Made by a program: the position numbers and the translations under genes
Source of the DNA: Terriglobales bacterium
GTDB lineage: Bacteria > Acidobacteriota > Terriglobia > Terriglobales > Acidobacteriaceae
NCBI GenBank assembly: GCA_015655195.1
Contig: JAATFM010000219.1
Span: 1 to 45,061 of the forward strand
DNA length: 45,061 bases
Direction: 5' to 3'
Shown here: positions 16,917 to 41,830 of the stretch, piece by piece
How positions within the stretch are numbered: position 1 is the first letter of the stretch
How the letters are laid out: each line of letters opens with the position of its first letter
Notes under the pieces: model-generated
Seen by the model: the letters and a program-made list of their open reading frames with translations, nothing else
Databases searched by the model: none
Told to the model about the DNA's origin: nothing

Positions 16917-17185
16917 GGCACAGGACCGCCTGAGAGATGCAGGTATCGACTACATCTCAGATCTGGTGGCGCTGGACGAGGGCAAGCTCCAGAGCATTGG
17001 GCTTACTCTCGAATGGATTGAATACATCAAAGAAACCCTCGGCAAACTCGGGCTTCGGCTGCACTGACCGCCATATCCCACTCTCCTGGAAATGCAATCA
17101 ACCCAGAGCTATCACATCAACAGCCAGCGATCTCCTTGGAATCACCGCAGTTTCCCATGGGGGTGGGCTGGCTTAGAGTTAGTTC

Positions 17186-23392: not shown

Positions 23393-23394
23393 CA

Positions 23395-26073
23395 CTAGCT
23401 CTCCCACCCGGCAAGTGCCCGGTAATCGTTGTAAGTCTCGCTGAGAGTTTCAATCTCCATTCCGTCGGCTGGAGGCGTGGATTCTGCGGTTGGTTCGGTA
23501 CGTTCGAGAACCGCTTCAAAGTTCCCGGCTCGAATCTGCTCGACGCGCCACCTCCATGTCTTCAGGAAACGCTGCCAGATGTCGGCTATATTTTCACCAT
23601 TTGCGGAAGGGACTCCTTTAGCGCCTGGGAAAAAATTACTATCGGACGCAAACAGGCTAGCCTGACTGAGGATGTAATACGCAACGGACGGCAGCTTCTT
23701 CGTCTCCTGGCGCAGCAACTCTGCATAGATGGCAAGTTGCAGATGGCTATTCTTCTTGAGCTTTTCTGGATACTTTTTGCCGCCGAACCATTTCATATCG
23801 ACTATTGCAAATTGGCCCTGCATATTCTCGATCACAAGGTCGGCAGAACCAGCCAATTCGCGGCCGTCCATCTTTCCGGAAACCTCTTGCTCGCATGAAA
23901 CGCTCACCGTATTTGCCTGGGCAAACTGTTGTCGCAGTCCGAGCAAGGCTCGATAAAGTTGGAATCGGAAGTTTTCAAGATCAGCTCCCCGTCCCTGCAC
24001 TCGAAAGATTGCTCCCTCCTGATCGATGATCTTCGCAAACGACTTGGCAAACCAGAATTCAAAATCAGCGTCAAAAATGCCGAGTGCGTTCGGCACCGCG
24101 AAGAACTGGTCAGCGAGACCGTGTGCCAGGTTGCCTTTGATCCGAGAGTCGTCGCCGAGATTAATGATGAGCGACGAATGTAACGCTGCGGGATATTGCA
24201 GGAGCCATTGATAGGGATTGAAAAGCAGCTTTTCCAGACTGGAGAATGACTCCTTATCGCGCAGCGCGACTGTAACGTCTTTTGGGAGCTTCCACCACCG
24301 CTTTGGCGCAGGCAATGGTACGTGAGTCACGGCGGTCATTTCTTTGCTGCCCGATTTCAGCAGGGCCTCAAGCTGGATTACCTTCGGCTGATCGACAACC
24401 GCGCCAATCATCTGCCACAGCGGGTGAACCTCCTCGCTCGGCGGAGGCAATACAAGCAGCAGTTGCTTCCGGGCAGTCATTACCGGGCGCAACCACTCGT
24501 TTGAAGCCTGGTCGAGTTGAGCCATGACTTCAGGGAGCGCGGCGCCAGCCTGACGAAGATCGCGAATCTCGATGGAGGACCAAGGAGGATTGCCGGGTAA
24601 CACCGGCATTACCAATTGCCACCAGATTACCTGGTCAGCAGGCTCAAACGCAGCGCCGGGATGAGTCGCCAACTGCCACGCACCAACCTCCGCCGGCCAG
24701 AGCGGGTTCTCGGACCCATTCGCGGTCGCCTGATCCACGAGTTTTTGAAGCTGGCGTTGCGATATTAGGTCAATACCTTGTGTGAGCAATGTCTTGAGTG
24801 ATTCAAGGCAAGCCTTGCATTGCCCATACCCTGCATGGAAAGAGAGACGCTTGGCATAGTCGGGTTCTCCCAGCCGAACGTGGAAAAACTTGGCAAGCGC
24901 GCCTACCCGCTCAATCACAGAATCAATGTTCGCCCCGTCCTCCAGTGGAAACTTTGAATGTTCCACCCATAAGGAAATCCGTTCACGGACCTCCGGACCC
25001 TTCTCTGGTCCATAGTGCTCATCAATCTCGCCCAGAGTCTGTTCCCACCGCTCACCTCCAATTCCGGGAGCTTCGGCAACTTTCTCGGCGAGCTTGCGGC
25101 GAGCGTAGCCGGGAATGGGACAGACAGGGTGAGTGAGAAATTGAACAAGTGCGTAGTAGTTCAGCGGTTTCCAGATTAGTTCTGTAGTTAGCGGCAAGAG
25201 CTGTAGTGCTGGACGGAAGGCGCTTGATTCTTTCAGGCACTGCCTGGAATGACCGGCAGCGGAGAGATATGCATCGAGGCTTGCTCCGTTGCCACCGGAG
25301 ATCAGCAACGTCTGCTTCTCATCTCCTAACTGCGTGGCAATCCAGTGAGCCGTCGTAGTACGAGTCTCTGATTGCACGACAATGACTGTTCCGTCATCCT
25401 GCCATGCGAGCTTCGATACTTCCTGACCGGCTGCGGCTTTCCGCAGGTTACTCTGCAATGCTCCCAGGAATCCCGCGCCTGCGCTTTCCTGCTCAGCAAT
25501 CTCAACCGGAAATTCCACGAGTACTGACTGCCAGCGTGACGGGAAGCTATCCAGCGGGTCTATGACTTGAACCTTGCCAATATCCGGCTTTCGCTTTTGC
25601 AGCGCGTCCTTCACTGCTTTCAATCGCTGGCCCACATTTGCCGACACCGCAGATTCTGCAATCGCTTCAACATCCGCCATATCCTGGAGTCGCTGTGAGC
25701 TATTGCCCGGAATACTGCCATCCCAACCATGTAGTGTCCACTGGTCGCGCCAATCGAGCAGGCAGGCTGCCGTTCCCTGCGGATCGACCGCAAAGCTCCG
25801 ATGATAAAAGCGATCTTCCAAGTTGAATCTCTGAAGGCAATTACGATACTGGACGATGCGCTCGGCCTGAGACGGGTAGAGAGACATCAAGCCCAGTTGA
25901 GTTTCTAGAAAAGTCAGAAATCCCAGTGGGCCAAATACAGATACTCCGAGCGAATTTGCCGGTTGCGTCGAACGCTGCCCATCCAGATGCCAACCGAAAG
26001 TGATAAGCCGATTTGTCAATTCGCTCTCCGTACTCGACTCGCAGATTTTGAATAGCTTGCCCCGGCCCCACAT
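23395..26073 (-). CDS. AddB-like PD-(D/E)XK nuclease subunit
   Basis: An 892-aa protein (starting at ATG 26073; GTG 26076 is also possible) without an intact Walker A loop, as in AddB/RecC-type inactivated helicases. The N-terminal half has FGPLGFLTFLETQLGL and a degraded helicase-like LLISGGNGASLDAYLSAAG. The C-terminal nuclease has LEKLLFNPYQWLLQYPA, then SADLVIENMQGQFAIVDMKW near residues 740-760 and QLAIYAELL, the RecB-type D...D-x-K pattern. The four-cysteine iron-sulfur pattern of some AddB proteins is not evident. It is translated directly before the AddA-like partner. The pair probably loads on and degrades double-stranded DNA ends. Confidence 0.78.
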   Translation of the reverse strand: MWGRGKLFKICESSTESELTNRLITFGWHLDGQRSTQPANSLGVSVFGPLGFLTFLETQLGLMSLYPSQAERIVQYRNCLQRFNLEDRFYHRSFAVDPQGTAACLLDWRDQWTLHGWDGSIPGNSSQRLQDMADVEAIAESAVSANVGQRLKAVKDALQKRKPDIGKVQVIDPLDSFPSRWQSVLVEFPVEIAEQESAGAGFLGALQSNLRKAAAGQEVSKLAWQDDGTVIVVQSETRTTTAHWIATQLGDEKQTLLISGGNGASLDAYLSAAGHSRQCLKESSAFRPALQLLPLTTELIWKPLNYYALVQFLTHPVCPIPGYARRKLAEKVAEAPGIGGERWEQTLGEIDEHYGPEKGPEVRERISLWVEHSKFPLEDGANIDSVIERVGALAKFFHVRLGEPDYAKRLSFHAGYGQCKACLESLKTLLTQGIDLISQRQLQKLVDQATANGSENPLWPAEVGAWQLATHPGAAFEPADQVIWWQLVMPVLPGNPPWSSIEIRDLRQAGAALPEVMAQLDQASNEWLRPVMTARKQLLLVLPPPSEEVHPLWQMIGAVVDQPKVIQLEALLKSGSKEMTAVTHVPLPAPKRWWKLPKDVTVALRDKESFSSLEKLLFNPYQWLLQYPAALHSSLIINLGDDSRIKGNLAHGLADQFFAVPNALGIFDADFEFWFAKSFAKIIDQEGAIFRVQGRGADLENFRFQLYRALLGLRQQFAQANTVSVSCEQEVSGKMDGRELAGSADLVIENMQGQFAIVDMKWFGGKKYPEKLKKNSHLQLAIYAELLRQETKKLPSVAYYILSQASLFASDSNFFPGAKGVPSANGENIADIWQRFLKTWRWRVEQIRAGNFEAVLERTEPTAESTPPADGMEIETLSETYNDYRALAGWES

Positions 26074-26087
26074 CACCCAGTCAACAA

Positions 26088-27035
26088 TTATCTAACTCCA
26101 GCCCGCAGCAGAGATTCCGCCAGGACCGGAGCATCGACGGGCCAGAATACTTCGGGCCGGGGACGGCGCACGCCTGGCGTGCCCGACACCGGCCGACAAT
26201 TCAGTACGGCATCCACCCACTGCTGCGGAACTTTATCGCGCCCATACACCGAGCCGGCGAGCGCGCCGACAATCGCTGCATTGGTGTCGGTATCGCCGCC
26301 ACACATTACGGTATCTACAACGGCATCTTCAAAGCTGCTGCTGTTCAACAGCCGATAGATCGCGTTGCCGAAGGCAATCAGAACCCATCCCTGTTGGTGA
26401 ACGTAATCCTCCGGAGGGTCGGAGGCAGATCGCAGGATGCAATTCTCGAGCGATGGGTCTACCTTGAACTCCTCAGCCCACTCCGTAATTGCCTCGTAGA
26501 TTTCCTCCGGCCCGGCCCCGGTGCGGATCGCCTTGGCAATCGCCAGCGTGAAGAGAGTATTCGCCTGTTGGCAAACAGGGTTTGGATGTGTCAGCTCTGC
26601 ATCTGCCTGGGCCCACAAGGCAATGTTCTTCGGATCGGCAAGTGCGCCGAAGATACCCAGCGGACTGATTCGCATCAAGGCTCCATTCGCCTGGCTAGAT
26701 TCCGACCTATAACCCCTCAACGCCCCGCCGATGGTATTGCCCACATCAAACGGATTGGTGTTGAGCCAGAACTTGTACTCCCTCAACGCCGAGTTGGAAT
26801 TATACCGGCCTTCTTTGACTAGCAACCTCGCCAACAGCAGAGCCAGTTCGGAGTCGTCCGTTGGCTGGCCGGCCAGTGTATTCCAGGTGCCTCCAGCATG
26901 GATTTCGCGCAATCCCTTCGGATAGCGCTGCAGAATCTCACGAGCACTTTGAAATTCCACCTGGCTTCCCAAAGCATCGCCCGCAAGCTGTCCTAGGAGG
27001 CAGCCCTGCGCTCTGACTAGAATTCCTATATCCAT
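26088..27035 (-). CDS. ADP-ribosylglycohydrolase (DraG family)
   Basis: A 315-aa member of the ADP-ribosylglycohydrolase fold. The N-terminal motif is GCLLGQLAGDALGSQVEF (residues 9-26). The metal-site motif is QPTDDSELALLLARLL near residue 60, and the C-terminal metal site is CGGDTDTNAAIVGALAGSVY near residue 245. All aspartates for the two metal ions are present, so it should remove ADP-ribose from a protein, nucleic acid or small molecule. ATG 27035 has AGGAG 5 bases upstream. It lies between a 116-aa unknown and the AddB-like gene (11-14 base gap) in one operon. No ADP-ribosyltransferase is recognised in the window. Confidence 0.88.
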   Translation of the reverse strand: MDIGILVRAQGCLLGQLAGDALGSQVEFQSAREILQRYPKGLREIHAGGTWNTLAGQPTDDSELALLLARLLVKEGRYNSNSALREYKFWLNTNPFDVGNTIGGALRGYRSESSQANGALMRISPLGIFGALADPKNIALWAQADAELTHPNPVCQQANTLFTLAIAKAIRTGAGPEEIYEAITEWAEEFKVDPSLENCILRSASDPPEDYVHQQGWVLIAFGNAIYRLLNSSSFEDAVVDTVMCGGDTDTNAAIVGALAGSVYGRDKVPQQWVDAVLNCRPVSGTPGVRRPRPEVFWPVDAPVLAESLLRAGVR

Positions 27036-27043
27036 CTGGTCTC

Positions 27044-27394
27044 CTATTCGCATTTGCGATTCCAGCGCATAATTTCCTCTGGCGTTCCCCGCTTCCGTAC
27101 CTCTTCCTGGATTGCAAGCAGGAACTCGGGGTGAACCTCAAGCGGCGTCAGGCAAAACCACGGGTATTGATCAAGCAGCACAAGAGCGTCCTGAATTGAT
27201 GAAACTGACGCGCTGGCCCTGACGAGACATTCCGGGGCGACAATGTCGTCCTTATCGAGCGCATCAGCAAAAGTGGATTCATCTGTTTGCGTCCAGAACC
27301 TCCACTGGCCGGTCGTATCCTTGCTCCCATACAAAAACAAGCTGCCGCCCTCTGCCCCCACCTCAAGAATCGTTTCCCTGGTCGAGTTCTCCAT
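27044..27394 (-). CDS. Hypothetical protein (116 aa) in phosphatase/ADP-ribosyl hydrolase operon
   Basis: ATG 27394 follows AGGAGAGTAAGG, a strong ribosome site that overlaps the end of the phosphatase gene region. The product MENSTRETILEVGAEGGSLF has a beta-sheet opening with a WRFWTQTDES strand, then helices with DALVLLDQYPWFCLTPLEVH and a basic tail (RKRGTPEEIMRWNRKCE). The pattern resembles small immunity-type proteins found in polymorphic toxin loci, but no family is assigned. It always travels here with the ADP-ribosylglycohydrolase (8-base gap), so a helper or binding role is likely. Confidence 0.7.
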   Translation of the reverse strand: MENSTRETILEVGAEGGSLFLYGSKDTTGQWRFWTQTDESTFADALDKDDIVAPECLVRASASVSSIQDALVLLDQYPWFCLTPLEVHPEFLLAIQEEVRKRGTPEEIMRWNRKCE

Positions 27395-27404
27395 CCTTAC
27401 TCTC

Positions 27405-27959
27405 CTAAGCGAGTGGCTTTGCGTTGAATACATACCGCTCCTGCGCAGCGGTTTCAATCGCACCAGGCCGCGCGGTACGCACCTTGCGAATTGCCTTTTC
27501 CGGAGCCATACCGAGTTCGACCAGAATCAGTCCAGCCACCAGTCCGGTGCGGCCCAACCCACCCCTGCAATGGATCAGAATACTTTCTCCAGTCTGCAAC
27601 CTCTGTTGAATCTCCGGGCCAGCCGTGGCCCAGCCTTTCTCAAAACGCGAATCGGGAACATCCACGTCCCGAATGGGCAGATGAATCCATCGCATCCCCA
27701 ATTCTTCGACGCGCTTGCCGAGATCCTTCACCTTGAGCAGATCAAATTCGTGATCCTCGATCAGCGTTACAGCCGTGGTTGCTCCCCAATCCTGGATGAC
27801 CTTCAAGTCTTCATCTAGGTCACGATTCCATCCCCGCCACGGGTCTTTCTTTCCGGGGCAGATGGTAAGTCCAAGTCTCCCTTCACCATCGCCGAGCCGC
27901 ACTTCGGCGATGAGCAAGGGTGAGGAATGGCTATCTTTCTGTGCGGTCAACCGGCTCAT
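27405..27959 (-). CDS. Dual-specificity-type (CDKN3-like) phosphatase
   Basis: A 184-aa cysteine phosphatase. The P-loop is SILIHCRGGLGRTGLVAG (H-C-x5-R type, cysteine near residue 131) and the general acid aspartate is likely in PIRDVDVPDSRFEKGW. The layout matches the cyclin-dependent-kinase-inhibitor-3-like bacterial phosphatases. The start is ATG 27959 with AAGGAG 6 bases upstream; the stop of the TY-Chap-like gene is at 27976. It probably removes phosphate from a protein, or from a phosphorylated nucleotide or ADP-ribose species handled by the hydrolase downstream; the substrate is inferred. Confidence 0.85.
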   Translation of the reverse strand: MSRLTAQKDSHSSPLLIAEVRLGDGEGRLGLTICPGKKDPWRGWNRDLDEDLKVIQDWGATTAVTLIEDHEFDLLKVKDLGKRVEELGMRWIHLPIRDVDVPDSRFEKGWATAGPEIQQRLQTGESILIHCRGGLGRTGLVAGLILVELGMAPEKAIRKVRTARPGAIETAAQERYVFNAKPLA

Positions 27960-27975
27960 CGAAATCTCCTTCAAT

Positions 27976-28920
27976 TTACTGAATCAGATTGGAGGCCGAG
28001 GGAAGTCCCGTGGCGTCCTTCTCCTCAAATGTGGGGTTCAGCCGGGCAGCGAATTCCTCCGCCACTACAGCCATCTCTCGCAGTCCCGCAACCAGTTGTG
28101 CCGGAATAAATGGATTCGTCGGAACGTCGAGAGTCGCAACCACCATGTTGTCGTGGTGGTGGCAACGCAGGCTGTGCTGGCCGACATTCAACTGATTCAG
28201 AATCTCGAACAGGGCTGGCGATTCGCCCACGCCTCGGACCAGCCCGGCACAGAGGCGAACCTTACCTTCGATCAGCACAGGCTGAATCATAAGCCCGTTA
28301 AAGAAGACCGCGATGTCACCATCTTCATCGAGCTTCAGGTCCGCAAGACCCGTCTCCTCACGGAAGACTTCCAGAACCCGCTCGATCAGGGTCGTTTCTT
28401 CGTGCTCTGTCAATTTCAGCCCTAACCCAGGGAACAGGAGATCCGCGCTTTCCTTTTCAAATGCCCGATAGCTCAACCGCGTGGGGTGGGCGAATCCCAA
28501 CCCGTGTGTCAGTGTATCCGCTGCAAGCTTCGCGATCTCTCTGACGGGCGTTGTCTCGGGAAGGTCCGTGAAATAGTTTGGCGAGCCGTCCGGATGCCCG
28601 TCCGCCGTGGAACTCTGCGGATTGTAAGTCGGCGTTTTCCAGCCACGCAAGCGCAGCCAAGCTGACTCCTGGCGATTGATACGGCTCTCACCCTTCATAT
28701 AGTTGTTGCTCGAAACCTCTACCCGCCATCCCCAGACACCCTGACAGGCGAACTGAAGAAAGCGATCCCCCTTCCGCGCGGAGAGGACCAGGTACTGGTC
28801 TTCCTTCATGCTTGCCAGCGCCGCCATGAGCTTATCCGCGAAGATGGACCAGTCACGTGAGACGGGCTTAGGCGGATTACTCCGTGGGGATGCAAACTGC
28901 TTTTTGACTGATCGATTCAT
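27976..28920 (-). CDS. TY-Chap / YbjN-like chaperone-type protein
   Basis: A 314-aa protein starting at ATG 28920 behind GGAGG. The C-terminal half (residues about 185-305) has the alternating strand-helix pattern of the type III secretion chaperone/YbjN fold: LKLDEDGDIAVFFNGLMIQP, a strand pair around KVRLCAGLVRGV and NMVVATLDVPTNPF, then a long helix. The N-terminal half (residues 30-150) with FADKLMAALASMKEDQYLVL and RFLQFACQ fits the N-terminal TY-Chap domain. Such proteins are predicted peptide-binding chaperones found next to AAA+ and effector genes in conflict systems. It opens the six-gene minus-strand operon and is divergent from the AAA+ ATPase unit. Confidence 0.65.
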   Translation of the reverse strand: MNRSVKKQFASPRSNPPKPVSRDWSIFADKLMAALASMKEDQYLVLSARKGDRFLQFACQGVWGWRVEVSSNNYMKGESRINRQESAWLRLRGWKTPTYNPQSSTADGHPDGSPNYFTDLPETTPVREIAKLAADTLTHGLGFAHPTRLSYRAFEKESADLLFPGLGLKLTEHEETTLIERVLEVFREETGLADLKLDEDGDIAVFFNGLMIQPVLIEGKVRLCAGLVRGVGESPALFEILNQLNVGQHSLRCHHHDNMVVATLDVPTNPFIPAQLVAGLREMAVVAEEFAARLNPTFEEKDATGLPSASNLIQ

Positions 28921-28982
28921 TGTGGACCTCCGAGAGTGCCCCGATTCTGTATGACCTTTTCGCAAATCCAAGATACGCCGCT

Positions 28983-29053
28983 GCTACGACAGATCTGGTC
29001 ATACCCGTCCGGAATCCAAAATCCTTTCGGCGAGTGACCGTATCTGTCGTAGC
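28983..29053. promoter_or_regulatory. Large inverted repeat, probable operator of the divergent promoters
   Basis: Arms of 19 bp at 28983-29001 (GCTACGACAGATCTGGTCA) and 29035-29053 pair at 17 of 19 positions. They lie between the TY-Chap operon (minus) and the secreted protein/AAA+ unit (plus). Each arm holds the word ATCTGTCGTA or its complement, which also stands upstream of the WYL regulator (34102-34111). A second, smaller repeat (GTATGACC at 28949 with its complement at 28997) overlaps the left arm. Binding by the WYL protein is inferred. Confidence 0.72.
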
Positions 29054-29166
29054 GCCATGTTGAAGTGGTTGCTATGAAACGGCTCAACACCTACTGATCG
29101 GCCGCAGTCCATCTGCATACCCCGGGCCTTCTGTAGAAAAATCCTCAGACGATTGGAAGGAAACCG

Positions 29167-29766
29167 ATGATTCTCAGGAAATACCCGCTCGTTGCCACGG
29201 TCCTGCTTTCGATTTGCGTATTCAACCTCAACGGCCAGTCTTCGGAAAAGACCTACAAGCACGCCAGTCAATACCAGGTGGCAATTCTCGACCAGAATCT
29301 GCGTGTGGCGACTGGCACGGATGCCACGCTCGCCAAGAACACGACCGATGCCAAGCTAGGCCCTGGCGGCCAGGGGATTCACCTCCTACATACCGACGCC
29401 GGGGATTTTCGCGTAGAGGCTCCCATCAACAAGGGCCTGACAATTCTGTCTGCAATGGGGTCCAACGCCTATCACCCTGCGGTCACTTACCACAACAAAT
29501 GGTTTCTGGATCAGGTGCAGCCCGGCACGAAGGTTCTCTTCGCATCCGAATGCGCGAAACCGAGCAAGAAGCATCCGAACGACGCCGTACGCTGCCGGTT
29601 CTGGTTTCCAGATCCTGACAGCAACAATCACGAATATGAGACTCTCGGCGACTTTACTCCATACACGGCCGGAGACGGCAGCAACACACAGAAGACCGCC
29701 AACACGCTGTGCGGCACCGGAAAGCTAAGCCCCGAAACTGAAGCACAAATCTGCCCGAAGAAGTAA
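29167..29766 (+). CDS. Secreted hypothetical protein (199 aa)
   Basis: A signal peptide (MILRKYPLVATVLLSICVFN, cut likely after NLNG) leads to a mature part of about 175 residues with KHASQYQVAILDQNLRVATG, four cysteines (ASECAKPS, VRCRFWF, NTLCGTG, QICPKK) and mixed polar sequence. The cysteines could form disulfides outside the cytoplasm. GGAAGGAAA precedes the ATG. No family is recognised. It is the first gene of the plus-strand unit with the AAA+ ATPase, from the shared operator region. A secreted protein in such a unit is unusual. Confidence 0.7.
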   Translation: MILRKYPLVATVLLSICVFNLNGQSSEKTYKHASQYQVAILDQNLRVATGTDATLAKNTTDAKLGPGGQGIHLLHTDAGDFRVEAPINKGLTILSAMGSNAYHPAVTYHNKWFLDQVQPGTKVLFASECAKPSKKHPNDAVRCRFWFPDPDSNNHEYETLGDFTPYTAGDGSNTQKTANTLCGTGKLSPETEAQICPKK

Positions 29767-29831
29767 TCATGCTGTGGGGTGCCTCACCCCACAACAACCT
29801 TCCCCATTCCCATCTGGAAAAGAGACCTGAT

Positions 29832-31205
29832 ATGGATGCCAGTATTTTTACCGCCACGGCAAACGACTGGATTCGCATTGCCATCGACAAACATAAGCTC
29901 TGGATTGAGTCCCAGCTCGGCGTCTCGTTTGATGACGCCCTCCTGCTGGAAGTTGAAAACCTCCTTGCCAGCATTCCCGCACGGACACTAATGCGGAATG
30001 TGCCTCTCTCCAGCCTGAAGCAGGGGCCGACGGAAGAACTGAGGGCGATGGTCACAGGTGTCGAATATCCGTCCGGAATCCTGCCTTACATTGCTGCAAG
30101 TTTTGAATCACGGGATTTCTCGGAGAACGCTGCCCCACCCTCCGAGAGCACACACGCCTGGAGCCTGCGCTGGAAGGACACCCCTTTTGCACTACGCTTT
30201 GAAGGGATGAGCAGTCCCGTTGTTGCCATGAAGCTCATCAGTAAAGCCGAAAAATTCGACATTGACCGCTACATCGTTGTCTGCCGTCGTGATGCGGTTG
30301 CCGAGGTAATGGAAATCCTACGCCAGTCCAACGCACGACAGGATGTCCCAGTCATCAACACCAGTGTCAGCGAGAAGAAAGTTAAGACCGCCGATTGGGA
30401 TGACCTTGTTCTGGCTGACTCCGTCCGGCGGCTGATTCGGAATGATTATGAATCCTTCTTCGCGCGGGAAGCATGGTTTCGAGCACATAAACTCCCATTC
30501 CGCCGCGGCTATCTGTTGCACGGGCCGCCGGGAAATGGCAAGACCAGCGTCATCCGTGCAATGCTCTCGCGTCCAGGGATGACCGGATTTACTATGAACT
30601 TCTTTTCGGTCGGGACCGACGACAGTGAGCTTGAAAAGCTCTTTGATCGTGCCGCTGCAAAAGCGCCTTCAATCATCGTTCTGGAAGACATAGACCGCGC
30701 ATTTCCCAAGAATCAGAGCCGGGAAACCAATCGATGCGAAGTCAGCTTGCAACAGCTTTTGAATTGCCTTGATGGAGTTGGCACCCAGGATGGGGTCATC
30801 GTTGTGGCTACCGCAAACGAGCCAACAGCACTAGACCCGGCCATCCTGAGTCGTCCGGGGCGCTTTGACCGGGTTGTACTGTTCTCCAACCCGTCGCTTG
30901 GTATGCGCTATGAATATCTGCGGAAAATGAATGACGCTCTGAGCGACGAAGCAATCCTCAAGACGGTGGACCTGTCAGATGGCTTCTCATTTGCTCAGAT
31001 GCGAGAGGTTTACATCCTGGCCGGCCAACTGGCGTATGAAGATGGGCAGGACATCTCTTATTCCCATCTCACTCGCTCCGTACGAACCATGCAGAAGGGC
31101 ATCGCCGCCAGCCGCCGCAAGTCAGAAACCGTAGGCTTTATCCCTCCCTTTCGAGATCTGCCCGACTACGATGAAGAGGAAGAGTTCCATGCAATCCCTG
31201 ATTAG
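29832..31205 (+). CDS. BCS1/CDC48-like AAA+ ATPase
   Basis: A 457-aa classical AAA+ protein. The N-terminal 210 residues are not recognised (MDASIFTATANDWIRIAIDK...). The ATPase has RRGYLLHGPPGNGKTSVIRA (Walker A near residue 230), SIIVLEDIDRAF (Walker B), a sensor 1 region IVVATANEPTALDPAILSRP and arginine fingers in GRFDRVVLF. It is closest in style to BCS1-type AAA proteins, which remodel or move folded proteins. ATG 29832 with GGAAAAGAGA upstream is preferred to the earlier in-frame ATG. BCS1-like ATPases have been seen as parts of defence gene clusters. Next to the TY-Chap operon it could act with that chaperone. Confidence 0.85.
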   Translation: MDASIFTATANDWIRIAIDKHKLWIESQLGVSFDDALLLEVENLLASIPARTLMRNVPLSSLKQGPTEELRAMVTGVEYPSGILPYIAASFESRDFSENAAPPSESTHAWSLRWKDTPFALRFEGMSSPVVAMKLISKAEKFDIDRYIVVCRRDAVAEVMEILRQSNARQDVPVINTSVSEKKVKTADWDDLVLADSVRRLIRNDYESFFAREAWFRAHKLPFRRGYLLHGPPGNGKTSVIRAMLSRPGMTGFTMNFFSVGTDDSELEKLFDRAAAKAPSIIVLEDIDRAFPKNQSRETNRCEVSLQQLLNCLDGVGTQDGVIVVATANEPTALDPAILSRPGRFDRVVLFSNPSLGMRYEYLRKMNDALSDEAILKTVDLSDGFSFAQMREVYILAGQLAYEDGQDISYSHLTRSVRTMQKGIAASRRKSETVGFIPPFRDLPDYDEEEEFHAIPD

Positions 31206-31206
31206 A

Positions 31207-31785
31207 ATGGTCCAGAAAGCCTACGCCATGACTACGCCAGTCACTGACATCTACCTGTTCCACGGCAAGGGAGGACGGCCCGCCGGGTCGGTCCTCCAGC
31301 TTGAAGAGTTACTGCGCCCTTTGTTTCCCAAGGCGAATTTCTCTCGTCCTGCTCTGCTTCACGGTGATCCATCGGTTCCGGCCGAGGATTCGCTTGCAGC
31401 GTTGGCGCAACTGGAAATCCCAGCCAACGCTGTGATTATCGGTATAAGTCTTGGCGGGTTTTTGGCAGCCAAGTTGCAGGAATCCGGTCGCAGCGACATG
31501 CGTGTAGTCGCAATCAGTTCACCAACTTGGGCCGATCAGGTCAAACTAGCCCTGCATCCACACAATCGGCTTGCGCTCTATTCCTCCCACGATGAGGTCA
31601 TCCACGGCCGCACAGAATTCTGGCCCAATCTAGCCGAAAGCTATGACCTCCCCTGGCTCACCCACGATACCGATTCGCACAAACATCGGCTCGTGCCGAT
31701 GTTTGCTGTTTGGCTCCGCGGAGATTCGATGTACGAATGCCTTAATAATGAAGAAGCGATGTGTCGATCAGAACCTACGTCCTGA
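31207..31785 (+). CDS. Small alpha/beta hydrolase (YdeN/RBBP9-like)
   Basis: About 192 aa. An N-terminal strand TDIYLFHGKGG is followed by the nucleophile elbow AVIIGISLGGFLAAKL (G-x-S-x-G), an aspartate region YSSHDEVIHGR and a late histidine in DTDSHKHRLVPMF, forming a full Ser-Asp-His set. The size fits small serine hydrolases. The exact start is uncertain: ATG 31207 and ATG 31228 are both possible and neither has a strong ribosome site, so it is probably coupled to the AAA+ gene, whose stop is at 31203-31205. It may hydrolyse an ester or lipid; the substrate is unknown. Confidence 0.7.
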   Translation: MVQKAYAMTTPVTDIYLFHGKGGRPAGSVLQLEELLRPLFPKANFSRPALLHGDPSVPAEDSLAALAQLEIPANAVIIGISLGGFLAAKLQESGRSDMRVVAISSPTWADQVKLALHPHNRLALYSSHDEVIHGRTEFWPNLAESYDLPWLTHDTDSHKHRLVPMFAVWLRGDSMYECLNNEEAMCRSEPTS

Positions 31786-31897
31786 CAGTATCCTGATTCG
31801 CTACAATTCCGACACCGGAAAAATTGCTTGGATTCGGTTTTGTCTTACTGATTGTGTCGCTTGGGCCAGTCGTAATGAAATCGGAGGAGAGTCTTGA

Positions 31898-34069
31898 ATG
31901 AGCATCGAGTATGGTGTTGAGCAGGTAAAACTATCAACAATTATTGAGGACATCAGGCACGATGCGACCTACGTAATTCCTAATCTCCAACGACCATACG
32001 TTTGGTCACCACAGCAGGTGACGATGCTGGTGGATTCCCTGTTTCGCCGGTGGCCCTTTGGCTCCCTTTTGCTATGGGAGGTCAAATCTGATGCGTTTCC
32101 ATCGGACGAAGAGGGTATCCCTAGCCGTCCCTTCTGGGAAGTTGTCGATCGTGCAGATGCTGGAAGTGACAAGACCACTTCAAAGAAGGGCGCGCCTTCT
32201 ACGTATCAAATGGTCCTTGACGGCCAGCAGAGAATTCAGAGCCTTGTCATTGCACTTGGCGGCGATCAATGGGGTTTTCAGTTGCATGATGCGGAGTGGG
32301 CGCAGGCGCTCGACGTGAGAGGTGGAAACTCCTGGAAGCATTGGTCAAAGGCATATATGTGCCTTGACTTGGAGCGGTTTGAAGAGGAGTGGGAAGCCAA
32401 GGCTAAACTGGTTAGAAAAATGGAAGTGTGGAGAATCCTAAACTGGGCTATCCTCGATCCCGCGAACTCGGGAGGCAAATCTCTCGGGTATCGCCCAAAG
32501 AACTATAAATGTCCAGTTGATGCATCTGAGGAGTTCCCGGGACGCTTTATTCGTCTCTCGCGCATTTGGAACCTCGTCGAAAACGGTCTCTCCCAAGACG
32601 AATACCTTACACGAGTTGATGAACTCCTTAACGAATACAAAGTCCATAACGATAAATGCGATATGCTGCGTAATCCGCTTGCAAATTTCATGACAATCGT
32701 CGAACGCGTAAAAACTGAGAGCCTTATTCATTCGCTCAAAATAAAGTCCTTTACCTCCACATCGCAGTGGACAAAAGATGACTATAGCGATGCGATCGTC
32801 AGCATCTTTACGCGACTGAATACCGCGGGGCGAACTCTGACACAGGAAGAGATCACCATGGCGTGGCTGACTGTTTACTGGGAACCAGCGGTAACGGAAG
32901 GAAAGGACGCCGGAAAATGTATCGATGAATTGCTGTCGTTGTTTACGGATCTCAAATTTGTTTTAGAGACGGATAAGATCGTCAGTCTCGTTTCCTATAT
33001 CTGGGCAGTTCATAAGCTGAACGGACGCCTGTTGGAGCCGAAGGACTATCTCAAGGGAGCAATTATCCAGAAGATGGCAAAAGAAGTCGCTCCAATGTGG
33101 CAGAGCTTGAAGAAGTGGCTTAGCAGCGGCGCGCAACTTGTCCGTGACCGGAATTTGGTCAAGTCACAAGGTTCCTTCAACGCGGTCATTGCTTTTTTGA
33201 CGTGGTACCAACTCGCGTATAGCAGGTTGGAAGAGCTACATACAAAGGTCGTGGTAGGAGACAGCCTTGAAAAGCAACTGCAGGAGATGGCAAATACATT
33301 TCTGGATCGATGGATATTTGGATCGCAGTGGGCAAACGTATGGGCTGTATCGGCAGTAGACAATTTCAAGAACTTCGCTTCGGATCTCAGTGATTTGCAT
33401 TCGAAGCTGGCCAAGTGTACCGCTGACGATTTCATTCCGATCCTAAATGGCGGCGTGTCGCAACTGATGAACCGAGTTGCAGATAAAGCCTCGGATCAAA
33501 TCGCAAATATCACGGCCAGGGGGCGTCAGGGGGTTGGGGCATACTATTACTTCCTTTGGGTATGGCATCGTCTGAATGAGCAGCGCTGGAATATGTCCAA
33601 AATCCCCATGCGTGATGGCACGAAGAAAGCGCCCAGGCTGGAAGTGGATCACTGCGTGGCCTATCAATGGTGGAAGAACCAAGTTGAAGCAGAAATCAAT
33701 CGGAAGTTCGAGGATTTTCATGGAACAGATGAAGAACGTTCCCTGATAGCCCCGGATGGTTTTGAAACTAAGGATGATGCTATTAGTTTCATTAACAAGC
33801 TCGGAAACTGCTCCCTTCTAGACAAGTACTTCAATATTGTCAAGAGTGACGGTCAAATGTGGGCCTTTATGAAAGAGGTCAAGGAATTTAAGGAGGGGAC
33901 ATTCGCACGCCCAGCGTGGGAAAATGCACTTCAATTACCTGCATGCATGACTGAGCCAGACAGCAATTCTTTAAGTGATTTGCAGAAAGCCATAGAGGAA
34001 CGGGATTTGAAAATCCGGAAGGAGTTGGCTGAATTCATTGCCGGATCGCGCGTGAGAGTTGATGTATAG
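31898..34069 (+). CDS. DUF262/HNH single-chain GmrSD-like restriction protein
   Basis: A 723-aa protein behind GGAGGAG. The N-terminal DUF262 (ParB-like) domain has VIPNLQRPYVWSPQQVTMLV and MVLDGQQRIQSLVIALGG, the nucleotide-binding signature of GmrS-type proteins. The middle has NTAGRTLTQEEITMAWLTV. The C-terminal part shows a DUF1524/HNH-type site: APRLEVDHCVAYQWW, then LGNCSLLDKYFNIVKSDGQM. Members of this group cut DNA with modified cytosines in an NTP-dependent way. The gene is on its own, 112 bases after the hydrolase and 82 before the WYL gene. Modified-DNA restriction is likely but the target base is unknown. Confidence 0.82.
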   Translation: MSIEYGVEQVKLSTIIEDIRHDATYVIPNLQRPYVWSPQQVTMLVDSLFRRWPFGSLLLWEVKSDAFPSDEEGIPSRPFWEVVDRADAGSDKTTSKKGAPSTYQMVLDGQQRIQSLVIALGGDQWGFQLHDAEWAQALDVRGGNSWKHWSKAYMCLDLERFEEEWEAKAKLVRKMEVWRILNWAILDPANSGGKSLGYRPKNYKCPVDASEEFPGRFIRLSRIWNLVENGLSQDEYLTRVDELLNEYKVHNDKCDMLRNPLANFMTIVERVKTESLIHSLKIKSFTSTSQWTKDDYSDAIVSIFTRLNTAGRTLTQEEITMAWLTVYWEPAVTEGKDAGKCIDELLSLFTDLKFVLETDKIVSLVSYIWAVHKLNGRLLEPKDYLKGAIIQKMAKEVAPMWQSLKKWLSSGAQLVRDRNLVKSQGSFNAVIAFLTWYQLAYSRLEELHTKVVVGDSLEKQLQEMANTFLDRWIFGSQWANVWAVSAVDNFKNFASDLSDLHSKLAKCTADDFIPILNGGVSQLMNRVADKASDQIANITARGRQGVGAYYYFLWVWHRLNEQRWNMSKIPMRDGTKKAPRLEVDHCVAYQWWKNQVEAEINRKFEDFHGTDEERSLIAPDGFETKDDAISFINKLGNCSLLDKYFNIVKSDGQMWAFMKEVKEFKEGTFARPAWENALQLPACMTEPDSNSLSDLQKAIEERDLKIRKELAEFIAGSRVRVDV

Positions 34070-34075
34070 AAATCC

Positions 34076-34111
34076 GATCTGTCATGAAATCAAATGACTT
34101 GATCTGTCGTA
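34076..34111 (+). promoter_or_regulatory. Probable WYL operator: repeated GATCTGTC sites
   Basis: GATCTGTCAT (34076-34085) and GATCTGTCGTA (34101-34111) are direct repeats 25 bases apart, with an inverted GTCAT/ATGAC pair (34081, 34094) between them. ATCTGTCGTA is identical to the core of the large inverted repeat at 28983-29053. The sites end 40 bases before the WYL start codon. Confidence 0.68.
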
Positions 34112-34151
34112 CCAGCCATGCACTCTGAAGTTTGAAAGGATCTCTCGAACG

Positions 34152-35123
34152 ATGCGCGGCGACCAATTGATCCGGCAATGGAAGTTAGTCGGCCTGCTTT
34201 CAGGAAAGCTCGGAAGAACGCTCGACCAGTTGGCTGGTGAGCTCGGCGTCACCAAGCGCACTATACAACGAGACATTCAGGTACTGGAGGGCTCGGGCTT
34301 TCCCATCTTCCCTGAGACCCGCGACGGCATCCTCTACTGGCGCTTTCTCGATGCCACAAAGGAATCGGACGATCTGGCCTTCACCATGCCCGAGTTGATG
34401 GCTCTCTACTTCAGCCGCGATTTGCTGAAGGTACTCCACGGCAGTCCTATGCAGGAAGCGATGGAGTCAGCCCTGCACAAGATCGGTGCCAAACTCCCTG
34501 CATCCGGCCACGATCTTGTTCGTCGGCTCAAGGAGCAGACGGCAGTTTCGGTCACAGGCTGGAAGGATTACACAAAGGCATCGAAAATCATCGACGCTCT
34601 GAGCCGGGCCATTCGCCAGCGCCTCACTATTGATCTCTCATATAAGCGTCTACAGGACTCGAAGGCCTTAACCCGTCCCATCGATCCCTACCGGCTCTGG
34701 TACGCCGGAGGTGGCCTCTATCTGATCGCCAACGACCACAAACGCGGCATCCGCACCTACGCCGTCGAGCGCATTACTTCTGTCAAAACTACCACCCAGC
34801 GTTTCACTGTACGGGGCGACTTCGATTTCGAGAAATTTGCCAAGACTGCATTCCCAATCAGCGGTGGCGAGCCCCAACAGGTCCGCATTCGCTTCTCCGC
34901 CGACCAGGCACCGTACATCATGGAGCGCCACTGGCACGACTCTCAGAAACTTCATCCGCAGAAAGACGGCGGTGTCATCTTGGAGCTCACCGTGGGCAGC
35001 CTTTGGGAAGTGAAGCGTTGGTTAATTGGATGGGGCGCCGCCGCCGAGGCGCTGTCGCCGGAAGAATTGGTGATGGATATTCACACCGAGATTGAGAAGC
35101 TGTATCGTGCGACGAGTAACTGA
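34152..35123 (+). CDS. WYL-domain transcription regulator
   Basis: A 323-aa YafY/BrxR-like regulator. The N-terminal winged helix has GRTLDQLAGELGVTKRTIQR-DIQVLE (residues about 20-50). The WYL domain (about 140-230) has RPIDPYRLWYAGGGLYLIA and the family's YAVERI strand, followed by a WCX-type C-terminal domain (HWHDSQKL, LIGWGAAAEALSPEEL). AAAGGA lies 10 bases upstream of the ATG. WYL regulators sense nucleic acids or nucleotides and often control phage-defence operons. The repeated operator upstream, shared with the 29-kb divergent promoter, points to control of its own operon and of the TY-Chap/AAA units. Confidence 0.9.
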   Translation: MRGDQLIRQWKLVGLLSGKLGRTLDQLAGELGVTKRTIQRDIQVLEGSGFPIFPETRDGILYWRFLDATKESDDLAFTMPELMALYFSRDLLKVLHGSPMQEAMESALHKIGAKLPASGHDLVRRLKEQTAVSVTGWKDYTKASKIIDALSRAIRQRLTIDLSYKRLQDSKALTRPIDPYRLWYAGGGLYLIANDHKRGIRTYAVERITSVKTTTQRFTVRGDFDFEKFAKTAFPISGGEPQQVRIRFSADQAPYIMERHWHDSQKLHPQKDGGVILELTVGSLWEVKRWLIGWGAAAEALSPEELVMDIHTEIEKLYRATSN

Positions 35124-35206
35124 GCCAGCCAGGCGTGTGAATCGCTGCTGTCGGTCGCCAGGTCCGAATTTCATAACAACGCAAATGCAATAGTCAGGAG
35201 AGAAAT

Positions 35207-36514
35207 GTGGGGAGCATCGTCTGGGGATTGTTGGGACCGGATACGACGGGTGGAGCGCGCCGAACGCGCACGCTGGGACTAGGCACGACTGTCAGAGCAA
35301 TAAATGATCGTGCCGTGCCCGGAATGGGCGGAGTGTGGTTCGGAAAGCAATTGCTGTTGGCGGTCCTTGGAGTGGCGATTGGAGAACGCCTTCGAGAAAG
35401 GGGCAACCGCGCACAGAACATTGAGGTCGCCGATGCAGTGGAGGCACTGGCATGTTGGCTGGGCCTAAAGTCCAACGGGTGGAAAATGGACCTCCGGCTG
35501 CGCGGGCATCAGAAGCTTCACGGTAGGACCGACCTTTCCTACGCCACAGTGAAGAAGAAGAGCTTTTATGTTACGCAGCCCATGCGGCAGACGACTCTGC
35601 AGCCGCTTCGTGCGCTGGGCCTTGTTGAGGCTAGTGGGGAGCGGTTCAATGCGTTTAAGTGCACAGAGACGGGGCGCGAGTTCATCGAAGTTGCATGTTC
35701 CGATTTCCGGCCCCGGAGACTCAGCGTACTGGCTTACCTGGAAAAGTGGGCCAGCGGTGAACGGGATGATGTGCAGGGTTCCGGTGACTTAAGCACAGCG
35801 CTGTCGCCAATTGAACCGTTGTCTAAGGGAGCACGTGACTTCTTACATGGGCGAATTGTTGCCGGCGATGGTGCCGATGTAGGCAGGCGACGCAGCGTGC
35901 TCAAGTGGCTGAATGCACTGCGAGACAATTCCGAGCAGCAGGTGAAATGGGACCAACGCGCGGAAGCAGTAGACGAAATACACTGGAAGGACCTCGAAGC
36001 TGGGGCACTCTTCTTTGCCACGAGGGATGCGGCCATCCTATTGCTCGACCAAGTTGAGTCCAGCATGGGAAAGCTGGCGGATCGCCGATTCCCGCTCGAT
36101 GGCACGTGGCCGGGAAGCGTCAGGGATTGTGCGGCGAAGCTGCGAGTAAAGGCACAGATATTTCTCAACCAAAGAAGCGCGTCGTTTCCTGTGGAGGCGA
36201 GGACGTTCTGCCTCGAATGCATGGTCGAAGAAAATTCGCGGCTTTTGGAGAACCTTCTGCGGCGCGAAAGCAATGTCTTGCGCTTGGAGGGCAGAACTGC
36301 GATTCCGGGCGTTGCCTTTACGGGAGCCGAAGTAGAAGAATCAGCGACTCCGCGCAGCACCGAGGAAGACGAAACACTGGGCCAGCCAAAGGGCCAATTT
36401 CTTCCAGAGGGCATTTCGCATCGCGTGATGAACATGTACCGGTTGAATCTTGACCTGCGCGATGAACTTGGGGAGTGGCTCGGATCGCCGGAAGAGACTG
36501 AGGGGCAGGCGTGA
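35207..36514 (+). CDS. Unknown winged-helix-like protein of the WYL-PLD-helicase operon (435 aa)
   Basis: GTG 35207 has AGGAG 6-7 bases upstream (the ATG at 35205 is in another frame). The middle (residues about 115-150) reads YVTQPMRQTTLQPLRALGLV, then ERFNAFKCTETGREFIE, a winged-helix pattern like those in restriction and defence helpers. The rest is helical with two cysteines (TFCLECMVEEN) and a polar tail. No family is recognised. Its stop overlaps the ATG of the phospholipase-D-like gene (TGATG). Being always translated with it suggests a specific partner or DNA-sensing subunit. Confidence 0.75.
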   Translation: MGSIVWGLLGPDTTGGARRTRTLGLGTTVRAINDRAVPGMGGVWFGKQLLLAVLGVAIGERLRERGNRAQNIEVADAVEALACWLGLKSNGWKMDLRLRGHQKLHGRTDLSYATVKKKSFYVTQPMRQTTLQPLRALGLVEASGERFNAFKCTETGREFIEVACSDFRPRRLSVLAYLEKWASGERDDVQGSGDLSTALSPIEPLSKGARDFLHGRIVAGDGADVGRRRSVLKWLNALRDNSEQQVKWDQRAEAVDEIHWKDLEAGALFFATRDAAILLLDQVESSMGKLADRRFPLDGTWPGSVRDCAAKLRVKAQIFLNQRSASFPVEARTFCLECMVEENSRLLENLLRRESNVLRLEGRTAIPGVAFTGAEVEESATPRSTEEDETLGQPKGQFLPEGISHRVMNMYRLNLDLRDELGEWLGSPEETEGQA

Positions 36515-38505
36515 TGAGGAAGCGCAAGGACGACTTCCGGCCGCCATCACTGGCGCAGCATTTTGATCCACCTGAGGGCTTCAAGGGATGCTTCGCCTGG
36601 CTCTGCGGCTATTCCGCTGACGAGAGTTTTCTCGACGATGCGGCTACACGGTTTATGGGCCGCACAAGAGACCAACGCGCCAATGAAGGCAGCCTGGGCA
36701 TGGCTCTAATGCTGGACCCCAGACACCGCGAACTATCCCTGACGGGGATACCGGGAGTGAAGCATCTCGCTCTCAAAGGAGTAAAGGCACCGTTCCGGCT
36801 ATTGCACGCTAAGGTGGCAATCCTAGGATTTCAGCATTCCTCCGAAGAATTGCAATGGCATTTGCGATTGATCGTTTCAACCGGCAACTGGTCGCGCCAG
36901 ACGCTCGAAGAGAGTTTGGACCTTGTCTTCCGGGTGGACCTGAACGACAGAGAGTTGAAAGCGCGGGGCAAGGAGGTGGCCCAAGCATGTGCGGACTTGC
37001 GGGCCGCATGGGATTTATTACATTGGTTGCGCGGACATTTCGACACGCGGCTGCTGGACATTCCTGCCCAACAAACTCCGGGGATTCAGTCTGCGCAGTC
37101 TAGGCTAGAGGACTGGATAAGGGAAGCAACGGGATACGGCCAGCGGACTGCTCCGCGGTTCTTTGATAACCGTAATCAGTCTCTTTTGGGCCAGTTGCCG
37201 GCATTGCTGGAACGGCACAAGCAATCGGCATCGCGGAATTATCTTGCGATGGGATCAGGCTTCTATGAAGGTTCGGAGAGTGAGCAACAGGTCCCGGGTG
37301 TGCTGAGTAAGATCGTATCCACTTTCCAGGCGAAACAACTGCTCACGCAGAAGCCCGAAGTGGATGTCTTCGTAAATCCGCTTGCGTGTCAGGCTGTGGC
37401 GGGTGCCTGGAAAGTCATTCACGATGCCGGCTGGAAGGTGCGTACGGCCGGCCAGCCGGAATACTTTGCGAAGCCGCGAGCGCTCCACGCAAAATTCCTC
37501 TTTAGCGCGAATCATCAGCGCAATTCGAGCTATTGCAACAACGCGTGGCTCTACATGGGCTCGGGCAATCTCACTGCGCCGGGCTTTACAAACAAGATGT
37601 CGGTTGCGGGCGGCAACCTGGAAGCAGGCGTGGTGCATTTTCCAGAATCGCTGAGTTGGAAGGAGGAACACGGAGTTCCATCTGACAAGGCTGTGACCAA
37701 TCTCCTGCCGTTGCAATGGAAAACGGATGTGGAGGACGAAGGGATGCAGCTTGTCGAGGGAGGTGAGCGCCCGGAGTCGGAGGGAATATACTGCGCAGCA
37801 CCCGTGGCTTACTTCCGGTGGAGAGCGGAAGAAGAAATGGGATGGCTTCTGCCAAATGAGCATCCAGGGTGCGAGTTTGAGCTGCTAGATGGAGAGGGAA
37901 AAGCTTGTTCCCGCACCGAGGAGAATGGATTTGTGTGGTTGTCCGCAAGGCCACGCGAGGTGAAATTGCGATGGCGCGTAGAAGATTTGCTGCAGCAAGC
38001 CATGGTACCCGTTGTGGATGAGTTCGGACGGATCGCGGCGACAGTGCTGCCACGCATGGAGATTGAAGAGGCGTGGATTCAGCTTGCAAACTTTCCTGCC
38101 CCTACGGAGGAAGAGGAACTGGAGCCGGACGCGTATCAATCGGATCCCATGACAGGACCAGATCAGAAGAAAGGCAATCATCGTCCTGGTATCTACCCGG
38201 TTCGCCAGTTGATGCAGTTGGTCGAAAACATTGCGGCTAGGCAAACTACGATTGCCCGGCTGGATTGGGCAATGTGGTGTACAAGGCTCGAACAATGCCT
38301 TACTCAAGCCAAAGAGAGCGCGGGCGTTGCGGAGTTCCTGAAGCTGGGCATCAATCCTCTGAGCCCGCTTTGGCATAGACCCTTCCGTCCGGAGTTTGCG
38401 GAGGACGGAAACTCGCCCGAAGGGACACACTACGAGAAGGTTTTGGCACGAGTGGAGAAAGCATGGAATGTATCGGAATTGGCTCCGTTGGGAGATGAGG
38501 CATGA
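36514..38505 (+). CDS. Tdp1-like phospholipase-D-fold protein
   Basis: A 663-aa protein with two PLD half-sites in the tyrosyl-DNA-phosphodiesterase style. The first is FRLLHAKVAILGF (residues about 92-104) followed by RLIVSTGNWSRQTLEESLD. The second is ALHAKFLFSAN near residue 327 followed by WLYMGSGNLTAPGFT. Both H-x-K and both following asparagines are present, so a covalent histidine intermediate is possible. The C-terminal 250 residues are beta-rich (FELLDGEGKACS, VVDEFGRIAATVLPR), possibly an added binding domain. Known Tdp1-like enzymes cleave phosphodiester links to protein or at DNA ends. ATG 36514 is preferred over GTG 36511. It overlaps the helicase gene by 4 bases. Confidence 0.8.
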   Translation: MRKRKDDFRPPSLAQHFDPPEGFKGCFAWLCGYSADESFLDDAATRFMGRTRDQRANEGSLGMALMLDPRHRELSLTGIPGVKHLALKGVKAPFRLLHAKVAILGFQHSSEELQWHLRLIVSTGNWSRQTLEESLDLVFRVDLNDRELKARGKEVAQACADLRAAWDLLHWLRGHFDTRLLDIPAQQTPGIQSAQSRLEDWIREATGYGQRTAPRFFDNRNQSLLGQLPALLERHKQSASRNYLAMGSGFYEGSESEQQVPGVLSKIVSTFQAKQLLTQKPEVDVFVNPLACQAVAGAWKVIHDAGWKVRTAGQPEYFAKPRALHAKFLFSANHQRNSSYCNNAWLYMGSGNLTAPGFTNKMSVAGGNLEAGVVHFPESLSWKEEHGVPSDKAVTNLLPLQWKTDVEDEGMQLVEGGERPESEGIYCAAPVAYFRWRAEEEMGWLLPNEHPGCEFELLDGEGKACSRTEENGFVWLSARPREVKLRWRVEDLLQQAMVPVVDEFGRIAATVLPRMEIEEAWIQLANFPAPTEEEELEPDAYQSDPMTGPDQKKGNHRPGIYPVRQLMQLVENIAARQTTIARLDWAMWCTRLEQCLTQAKESAGVAEFLKLGINPLSPLWHRPFRPEFAEDGNSPEGTHYEKVLARVEKAWNVSELAPLGDEA

Positions 38506-41793: not shown

Positions 41794-41830
41794 TTGGGAA
41801 GCTGACGTTCTGCCACTGAACTACTCCCGC
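41794..41830. repeat. Right attachment site (37-bp direct repeat)
   Basis: An exact copy of 1291-1327, the 5' half of the tRNA-Gly including the anticodon loop. No 3' half follows, so it makes no tRNA. Host sequence begins at 41831 and, on the minus strand, should contain the original tRNA promoter. Confidence 0.93.

Follow-up and report, generated by a model that had tools for sequence, protein, structure and literature searches.

We describe a candidate control circuit in a 45,061-nucleotide stretch of a Terriglobales bacterium genome (contig JAATFM010000219.1 of assembly GCA_015655195.1), which is called the window below. Two blocks of putative defence genes in the window carry copies of a 19-base box, TGACYNNATCTGTCGTASC, in their promoters. 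One block is a minus-strand operon that starts with a TY-Chap gene; the other comprises the gene for an HTH-WYL-WCX transcription factor (the WYL protein) and, behind it, a trio encoding a predicted mostly helical protein, a PLD-like protein and an SNF2-type helicase. An AAA+ unit with a box of its own lies between the two (Table 1). One WYL-type protein probably controls both blocks through these boxes, by activation and against phage, as judged from comparison of sequences.

The core of the box is a 10-base word, ATCTGTCGTA, which occurs exactly at 28985-28994(-), 29042-29051(+) and 34102-34111(+). No further copy with one mismatch or fewer is present in the window. These positions, and a near copy (ATCTGTCATG) at 34077, are as given in the original prediction, which regarded the repetition of the word as unlikely by chance. 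The bare word is only mildly unusual. At least three matches with one mismatch or fewer arose in 21 of 100 shuffles of the window, and the 4.76-Mb genome contains six exact copies versus three of the reversed control. The significance of the word comes from a match longer than 10 bases. A blind comparison of the promoters at 28.9-29.2 kb and 34.1 kb yielded a 23-base ungapped match, the score of which was reached by none of 300 dinucleotide shuffles. The 19-base box fits all three window sites. In the genome it has three exact matches (the window sites, by construction), none with one mismatch, one with two and 20 with three, and the total of 24 at up to three mismatches equals that of the reversed control (24). 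The result is the lack of close matches elsewhere: copies scattered over many unrelated places would have spoken against a shared operator, and the scan of the genome found no other copy within one mismatch. The two-mismatch copy and the one checked copy of the 20 with three mismatches are inside open reading frames (ORFs) according to a simple ORF call.

The 19-bp imperfect inverted repeat that had been predicted between the TY-Chap and AAA+ genes is present, its arms (28983-29001 and 29035-29053) being identical at 17 of 19 positions when inverted. We read it as two back-to-back boxes, one per promoter. A single operator spanning 28983-29053 was rejected because the spacing between box starts varies from 41 to 52 bp across loci and the window keeps just one box at its WYL promoter. 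The near copy at 34077 resembles the box in its right half only, with mismatches at 7 of 17 informative positions.

Boxes of this type accompany orthologs of the WYL gene in other genomes. The WYL protein, used as the query, matched 51 of 396 genomes at E 1e-30 and 8 of 300 at E 1e-45, with the genome of the window counted in both. Seven orthologs are found in the same family, at 71% (G406), 69% (G588), 68% (G492), 52-53% (G321 and G523) and 50% (G171 and G609) identity, and all seven loci were retrieved as stretches of 4.9 to 20 kb. At six of the seven, a homolog (38-44%) of the AAA+ gene at 29769 is divergent from the WYL gene, and the intergenic region of all six contains an inverted pair of boxes, clear in four and drifted in two (L145 and L176). 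The mismatches of the pairs to a consensus derived from the window only are 1+1 (L172), 2+1 (L173), 1+3 (L174), 3+3 (L144) and 4+5 (L145), and the best sites in background windows have 4-8 in L172-L174, 3-8 in L144 (with one chance site) and 5-8 in L145. The L176 pair, recognised by eye, is weak (5 and 7 mismatches, background 4-7). Sixteen retrieved loci with more distant WYL genes (31-39% identity), which are part of those matched in the search of 396 genomes, have no site at three mismatches or fewer. Since the box accompanies the WYL orthologs and sits in divergent WYL/AAA+ promoters elsewhere, both the WYL and the AAA+ promoters are likely targets of the WYL protein. Phylogenetic footprinting in this way upholds the predicted control by the WYL protein for these two promoters; for the TY-Chap operon, the link comes from one genome.

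The same comparison bears on the idea that the boxes are a chance or non-regulatory repeat, such as a recombination site or a transposon end. The shuffle and genome counts of the bare 10-mer would agree with it. However, the box is conserved in orthologous promoters of other genera, above the same-locus background except in L176. This explanation is highly improbable and appears already refuted by the orthologs, unless those loci are misassembled.

Fifteen aligned sites give the general consensus YGACCNNRNNTGTCRYASC, with half-sites RYGAC-N7-GTCRY. The left half-site is intact in all 15 and the right in 12. The ends of the boxes differ according to the gene they face: in the window, L172, L173 and L174, boxes on the WYL side end in ACC and those on the AAA side in AGC, and in L144 and L145 both boxes of the pair end in ACC. 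The distance from the box to the WYL start codon is 38-39 bp in the same four loci and 46, 20 and 64 bp in L144, L145 and L176, respectively. Because endings and WYL distance agree in these four, the separation of the pair in this island seems to have left each gene with the box that it had before. Each box is followed, at 7 bp, by the position of a -10-like hexamer. Across all 15 sites, 27 of 45 key bases match (any-offset permutation p 5e-5), and across 11 non-redundant sites, two of which are the weak L176 sites, 19 of 33 do (p 0.0016). On the TY-Chap side, the hexamer TATCTT is followed by GGAGG and an ATG at 28920. A sigma-70 -35/-10 pair was not found in the divergent region 28850-29250, a weak negative, as shuffles average only 0.4; 33950-35300 contains one such pair, at 35080, inside the WYL gene. 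The box may also resemble the PafBC promoter motif and its spacing, a likeness that is not used as evidence here.

The WYL protein is more likely an activator than a repressor, judging from its sequence and its boxes. Activation is favoured by the -10-like hexamer 7 bp downstream of the box and by a sequence that resembles DriD and PafBC more than BrxR. A profile of eight WYL orthologs, in all of which the HTH residues K35, R36, T37, Q39, R40 and D41 are invariant, scored best against the solved structures 9pfq (77 bits) and 8tp8 (76.7 bits), followed by two unnamed WYL proteins (63.7) and PafBC (63.5); BrxR scored 22 bits. Structure 8tp8 is DriD (PMC11804915). The combination of HTH, WYL and WCX domains with a box at a fixed distance upstream of the -10 is that of DriD, PafBC and SiwR. 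In DriD promoters, the boxes overlap the -35 and keep a constant distance to the -10, and DriD of Caulobacter crescentus, an HTH-WYL-WCX homodimer as predicted here, also has a divergent promoter at its own gene (PMC12340889). DriD differs in serving DNA-damage genes at several promoters, whereas exact boxes are confined here to one island. The mycobacterial activator SiwR uses a 19-bp imperfect palindrome upstream of the -10, as in the window, and requires the -26 region (PMC10693628). PafBC, another mycobacterial activator, works through a -26 motif, sigma adaptation and a single-stranded DNA (ssDNA) ligand (PMC11804915). In contrast to the homodimer proposed here, it is a heterodimer with a non-palindromic motif (PMC6789036). 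The targets of SiwR and PafBC differ from those in the window.

The same regulon could instead be held off by a repressor, in the manner of the WYL protein CapW, that blocks RNA polymerase at each promoter until infection relieves it. The direct precedent for one WYL protein acting on several boxes is BrxR, which represses through two boxes, R-BOX1 and R-BOX2, in the multi-system BREX defence island of pEFER (PMC9122601). Iyer et al. call the WYL/Nudix factors of ADP-ribosylglycohydrolase (ARG) systems negative regulators (PMC9503650), and a box at these positions would overlap the polymerase. However, R-BOX1 is an 11-bp inverted repeat with a 5-bp spacer and lies downstream of the -10 (PMC9122601). 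The box of the window is upstream of the -10-like element, as is the SiwR palindrome (PMC10693628), and its fixed spacing is that of DriD promoters (PMC12340889). The low BrxR score and, weakly, the missing -35/-10 pair in the divergent region also speak against repression, which we consider unlikely, although it is the strongest of the competing explanations. HipB, encoded at 19627-19974 in the window, was also considered as the owner of the boxes and is not favoured, as the boxes accompany the WYL gene in other genomes.

Gene order elsewhere indicates how the two blocks relate to each other. On plasmids of Leisingera and Fuscovulum, genes for WYL, a PTP-ARG fusion, PD-(D/E)XK (as annotated), UvrD and the trio stand in succession and share a strand, and we infer an operon from this co-directional run. 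TY-Chap was not detected in either run. Among seven plasmid records with the PLD protein, UvrD is near the trio in five, and PTP/ARG is within the retrieved stretch in two. In genomes, the best 80 of 123 trio loci, many with short flanks, were searched by tblastn at 45 bits or more: WYL was detected at 26, AAA+ at 22, both at 20, UvrD at 8, PTP/ARG at 4 and TY-Chap at none. On these counts, the trio is a module by itself that is sometimes combined with other parts. The original prediction that 20.2-41.2 kb may be one large system is supported by the plasmid runs, which hold most genes of both blocks, TY-Chap not among them. In two other genomes (G085 and G180), a single contig carries both a WYL and a TY-Chap gene, at a distance of 0.3 and 2.3 kb (L149 and L150); ARG was not detected at these two loci, so that the support for a WYL/TY-Chap link is weak. 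On Haematobacter massiliensis plasmid pOT1-2 (L034/L038), an annotated BREX-1 operon with WYL is directly followed by PD-(D/E)XK, UvrD and the trio, as if these five genes were a BREX add-on.

Several observations weigh against control of both blocks by the WYL protein. The L145 and L176 pairs have drifted far, and the latter cannot be distinguished from background windows. L175 (53%) lacks an AAA+ neighbour and has a single three-mismatch site about 0.7 kb upstream of WYL. Several sites have poor -10-like elements, with none of three key bases in both L145 sites. Over 28 genomes, the general box gave 16 hits, as did the reversed control (16), so the evidence lies in where the hits fall and not in their number: at the AAA+ promoter in six of the eight genomes with this WYL gene (partly by construction, as the box was built from sites including these loci), plus two stray hits, with none in G523 and G609 and four hits in the 20 genomes without a WYL match at E 1e-45. 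The structural model of the WYL protein is poor (predicted local distance difference test, pLDDT, 66.8) and gives no support for a dimer. Islands that carry one block without the motif had been named in advance as counting against a single regulon, and loci with one block alone do exist: a similar PD-(D/E)XK gene is within the retrieved flank at 6 of the 80 trio loci. The blocks are often separate and are better seen as separable modules. Finally, the TY-Chap operon has a box promoter in one genome only, and no ortholog locus bears on this link.

The last point would be expected if the boxes were partly a relic of an AAA+/WYL promoter that a rearrangement had split, leaving a copy at each end, with only AAA+ and WYL regulated and the TY-Chap operon a bystander of the inverted partner box. 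The AAA/WYL pair with paired boxes occurs in six other genomes, and TY-Chap was not found in the retrieved stretches (4.9 to 20 kb) around the seven WYL orthologs. On the other hand, among the three sites in the window the one on the TY-Chap side has the best -10, at the right spacing and followed by GGAGG and ATG. Over 42% of ARG systems have a WYL or Nudix factor (PMC9503650), and no other WYL protein is present among the 28 window proteins scanned. In addition, most genes of both blocks stand in one run elsewhere. A relic of this kind is improbable, somewhat more so than repression, and joint control of both blocks is still preferred.

A similar arrangement with a different box is found in a Pseudodesulfovibrio metagenome-assembled genome (L060, contig G654:C144). 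AAA, WYL and the trio are on one strand and PD-(D/E)XK and UvrD on the other, split as in the window. The AAA-WYL interval (about 8764-8806) contains a perfect 17-base inverted repeat (GTATCAAAGGCTGCACC / GGTGCAGCCTTTGATAC), and a near copy of one arm, with two differences, precedes PD-(D/E)XK-UvrD at 25039-25055. With a 17-mer pattern that allows for these two differences, the two arms and the near copy are the only places at one mismatch or fewer in that genome; up to three mismatches, the pattern has 24 hits versus 39 for the reversed control. The similarity between the WYL and PD-(D/E)XK-UvrD promoters was reached in 0 of 40 shuffles and, over slightly different stretches, in 4 of 300 in a stricter dinucleotide test. 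Two other L060 promoter pairs, of three tried, shared nothing above shuffles. This box, which differs in sequence from that of the window, is a suggestive, independent parallel of shared control of WYL and a nuclease-helicase.

The sequences show that the boxes exist and are conserved alongside WYL orthologs, that the -10-like element stands at a fixed spacing and that the gene blocks occur together elsewhere. From this we infer the following model of binding, activation by a signal and joint function against phage. The HTH-WYL-WCX protein would recognise the 19-bp box, most likely as a homodimer. Each promoter would have one box about 7 bp upstream of its -10-like element, a layout that matches the WYL activators SiwR, PafBC and DriD, and perhaps no working -35. 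The two back-to-back boxes would serve the divergent TY-Chap and AAA+ promoters, and the third box the WYL gene and the trio behind it. By analogy, the WYL domain may bind ssDNA or another nucleic-acid product of infection; for ARG systems, ADP-ribose products have been proposed as the signal (Iyer et al., PMC9503650). The signal-bound regulator would recruit RNA polymerase to all three promoters and co-induce the ARG/phosphatase/chaperone and AddAB-like nuclease-helicase block, the AAA+ unit and the PLD and SNF2 trio. As to its history, a unit with AAA+ and WYL diverging from two boxes may have split, each gene keeping its own box type, and the TY-Chap operon may have come under the box on the other side.

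The gene after WYL varies among the orthologs: in L174 it matches Mrr_cat above cut-off and in L173 PDDEXK_4 below it, and in L172 it has no family match. This variation suggests that the WYL/AAA+ unit is a switch with variable cargo. It is possible, although we put this forward tentatively, that AAA+/WYL is a portable "switch cassette" that captures unrelated nuclease cargo, some of it restriction-fold in relatives. Here the cassette would be split, which would place at least three transcription units of an approximately 21-kb compound defence system under a single regulator with DriD/PafBC-type activation, and the same wiring would have arisen with an unrelated box in the Pseudodesulfovibrio lineage.

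Control of defence islands by WYL proteins, even with two boxes in one island, is already known from BrxR (PMC9122601). The conserved AAA+/WYL box pair, boxes that would tie the parts of a split compound system to each other and a layout of the activator type are new; a full-text literature search, with most subscription papers outside its scope, turned up no account of either the gene set or the box pair. Gene adjacency is the usual basis for dividing large defence islands into "systems". Here the conserved operator suggests a single control circuit for two blocks that lie apart and in opposite orientation, and shared boxes thus offer a rule for delimiting defence systems. The box is also a concrete target for tests of whether a WYL factor activates, rather than represses, anti-phage genes, and the set of orthologous promoters makes the prediction testable with short DNA probes.

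Table 1. Boxes, promoter elements and genes of the two blocks (window positions; functions are predicted)
Feature	Position	Strand	Remarks
WYL box 1 TGACCAGATCTGTCGTAGC	28983..29001	-	Putative box of TY-Chap operon; exact consensus match; related boxes at orthologous WYL loci
WYL box 2 TGACCGTATCTGTCGTAGC	29035..29053	+	Putative box of AAA+ unit; ends AGC like AAA-side boxes of L172-L174
WYL box 3 TGACTTGATCTGTCGTACC	34095..34113	+	38 bp before WYL start codon; ends ACC like WYL-side boxes
Near copy ATCTGTCATG	34077..34086	+	Right half-site only
-10-like hexamer TATCTT	28970..28975	-	7 bp downstream of box 1; spacing fixed across sites
Weak -10-like hexamer TGAAGT	29061..29066	+	After box 2; 2/3 key bases
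Weak -10-like hexamer CACTCT	34121..34126	+	After box 3; 2/3 key bases
UvrD helicase + PD-(D/E)XK, AddA-like	20219..23407	-	Pfam; NCBIfam AddA 210 bits, cut-off 708
PD-(D/E)XK nuclease	23395..26076	-	AddB-like by position and domain; Pfam PDDEXK_1; no NCBIfam match
ADP-ribosylglycohydrolase (ARG)	26088..27053	-	Pfam E 2.6e-63
139-aa ORF	27044..27463	-	No Pfam match
Rhodanese/DSP-type phosphatase (PTP-SAK)	27405..27974	-	Pfam; 44-47% to PTP part of PTP-ARG fusions
TY-Chap3 + TY-Chap1 predicted peptide-binding chaperone	27976..28971	-	Pfam; likely start ATG at 28920
199-aa ORF	29167..29766	+	No family; start signal-peptide-like by eye
AAA+ ATPase	29769..31205	+	Pfam; homologs divergent to WYL in 6 other genomes
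204-aa ORF of no assigned family	31171..31785	+	
GmrSD_N protein	31898..34069	+	PADLOC HEC-05-like
HTH-WYL-WCX transcription factor	34152..35123	+	Pfam HTH_11, WYL, WCX above cut-off; proposed box owner
Trio gene 1, mostly helical (predicted)	35207..36514	+	No Pfam match
Trio gene 2, PLD-like protein	36511..38505	+	Two conserved HAK motifs; PLDc_2 below cut-off
Trio gene 3, SNF2/DrmD-like helicase	38502..41210	+	

The ARG, phosphatase and TY-Chap part of the minus-strand operon fits the ARG systems predicted by Iyer et al. in 2022 to undo phage ADP-ribosylation (PMC9503650). ADP_ribosyl_GH and PTP-SAK domains occur in one co-directional run, TY-Chap3 and TY-Chap1 are present, and a WYL gene is found at a non-adjacent position. 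No coupled ADP-ribosyltransferase was found among the 19 window proteins scanned, as fits an ARG system. ARG-centric systems also share with the window the rhodanese-phosphatase adjacent to ARG, the WYL factor and the restriction endonuclease and helicase additions (PMC9503650). Unlike in those systems, WYL is 5 kb away and linked by shared boxes, an AAA+ unit and the PLD-SNF2 trio are added, and activation is proposed instead of repression. The AddA-like protein falls below the curated cut-off for an AddAB repair nuclease (Table 1). The trio does not correspond to DISARM: the DrmD score is 90 bits versus a cut-off of 610, and no methyltransferase family was found among the scanned window proteins.

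The first protein of the trio (435 aa) has a confident predicted fold (pLDDT 89.6) and was detected at 77 of the 80 trio loci. None of 41 members has a Pfam match, and no PDB or BFVD structure matched at E 0.001, which makes it a candidate new defence family. In a phylum search of 396 genomes, the PLD protein matched two, that of the window and another at E 5.4e-4, and one relative is found among viral contigs (L123).

The defence region is in an integrated island of about 40.5 kb. A 37-base direct repeat of part of a tRNA-Gly lies at 1291-1327 and 41794-41830, with an integrase at 1408-2586 and the right end just past the SNF2 gene. Elsewhere in the window, beside an integrase at 12136-13245, the stretch 5961-12039(-) holds two large neighbouring ORFs of 1099 and 928 aa, neither of which matches Pfam. 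Near the ARG operon, 17186-18214(-) encodes a REase-ARP protein (PF22558), a restriction-fold family named for its ARP association. A HipA gene and a small HTH-like ORF lie between the two (18350-19974), where no exact box occurs. About 10 kb from the WYL gene of another locus, L162 (G026:C180), an approximately 36-bp repeat in units of approximately 73 bp extends over 16086-17864 and looks CRISPR-like by eye.

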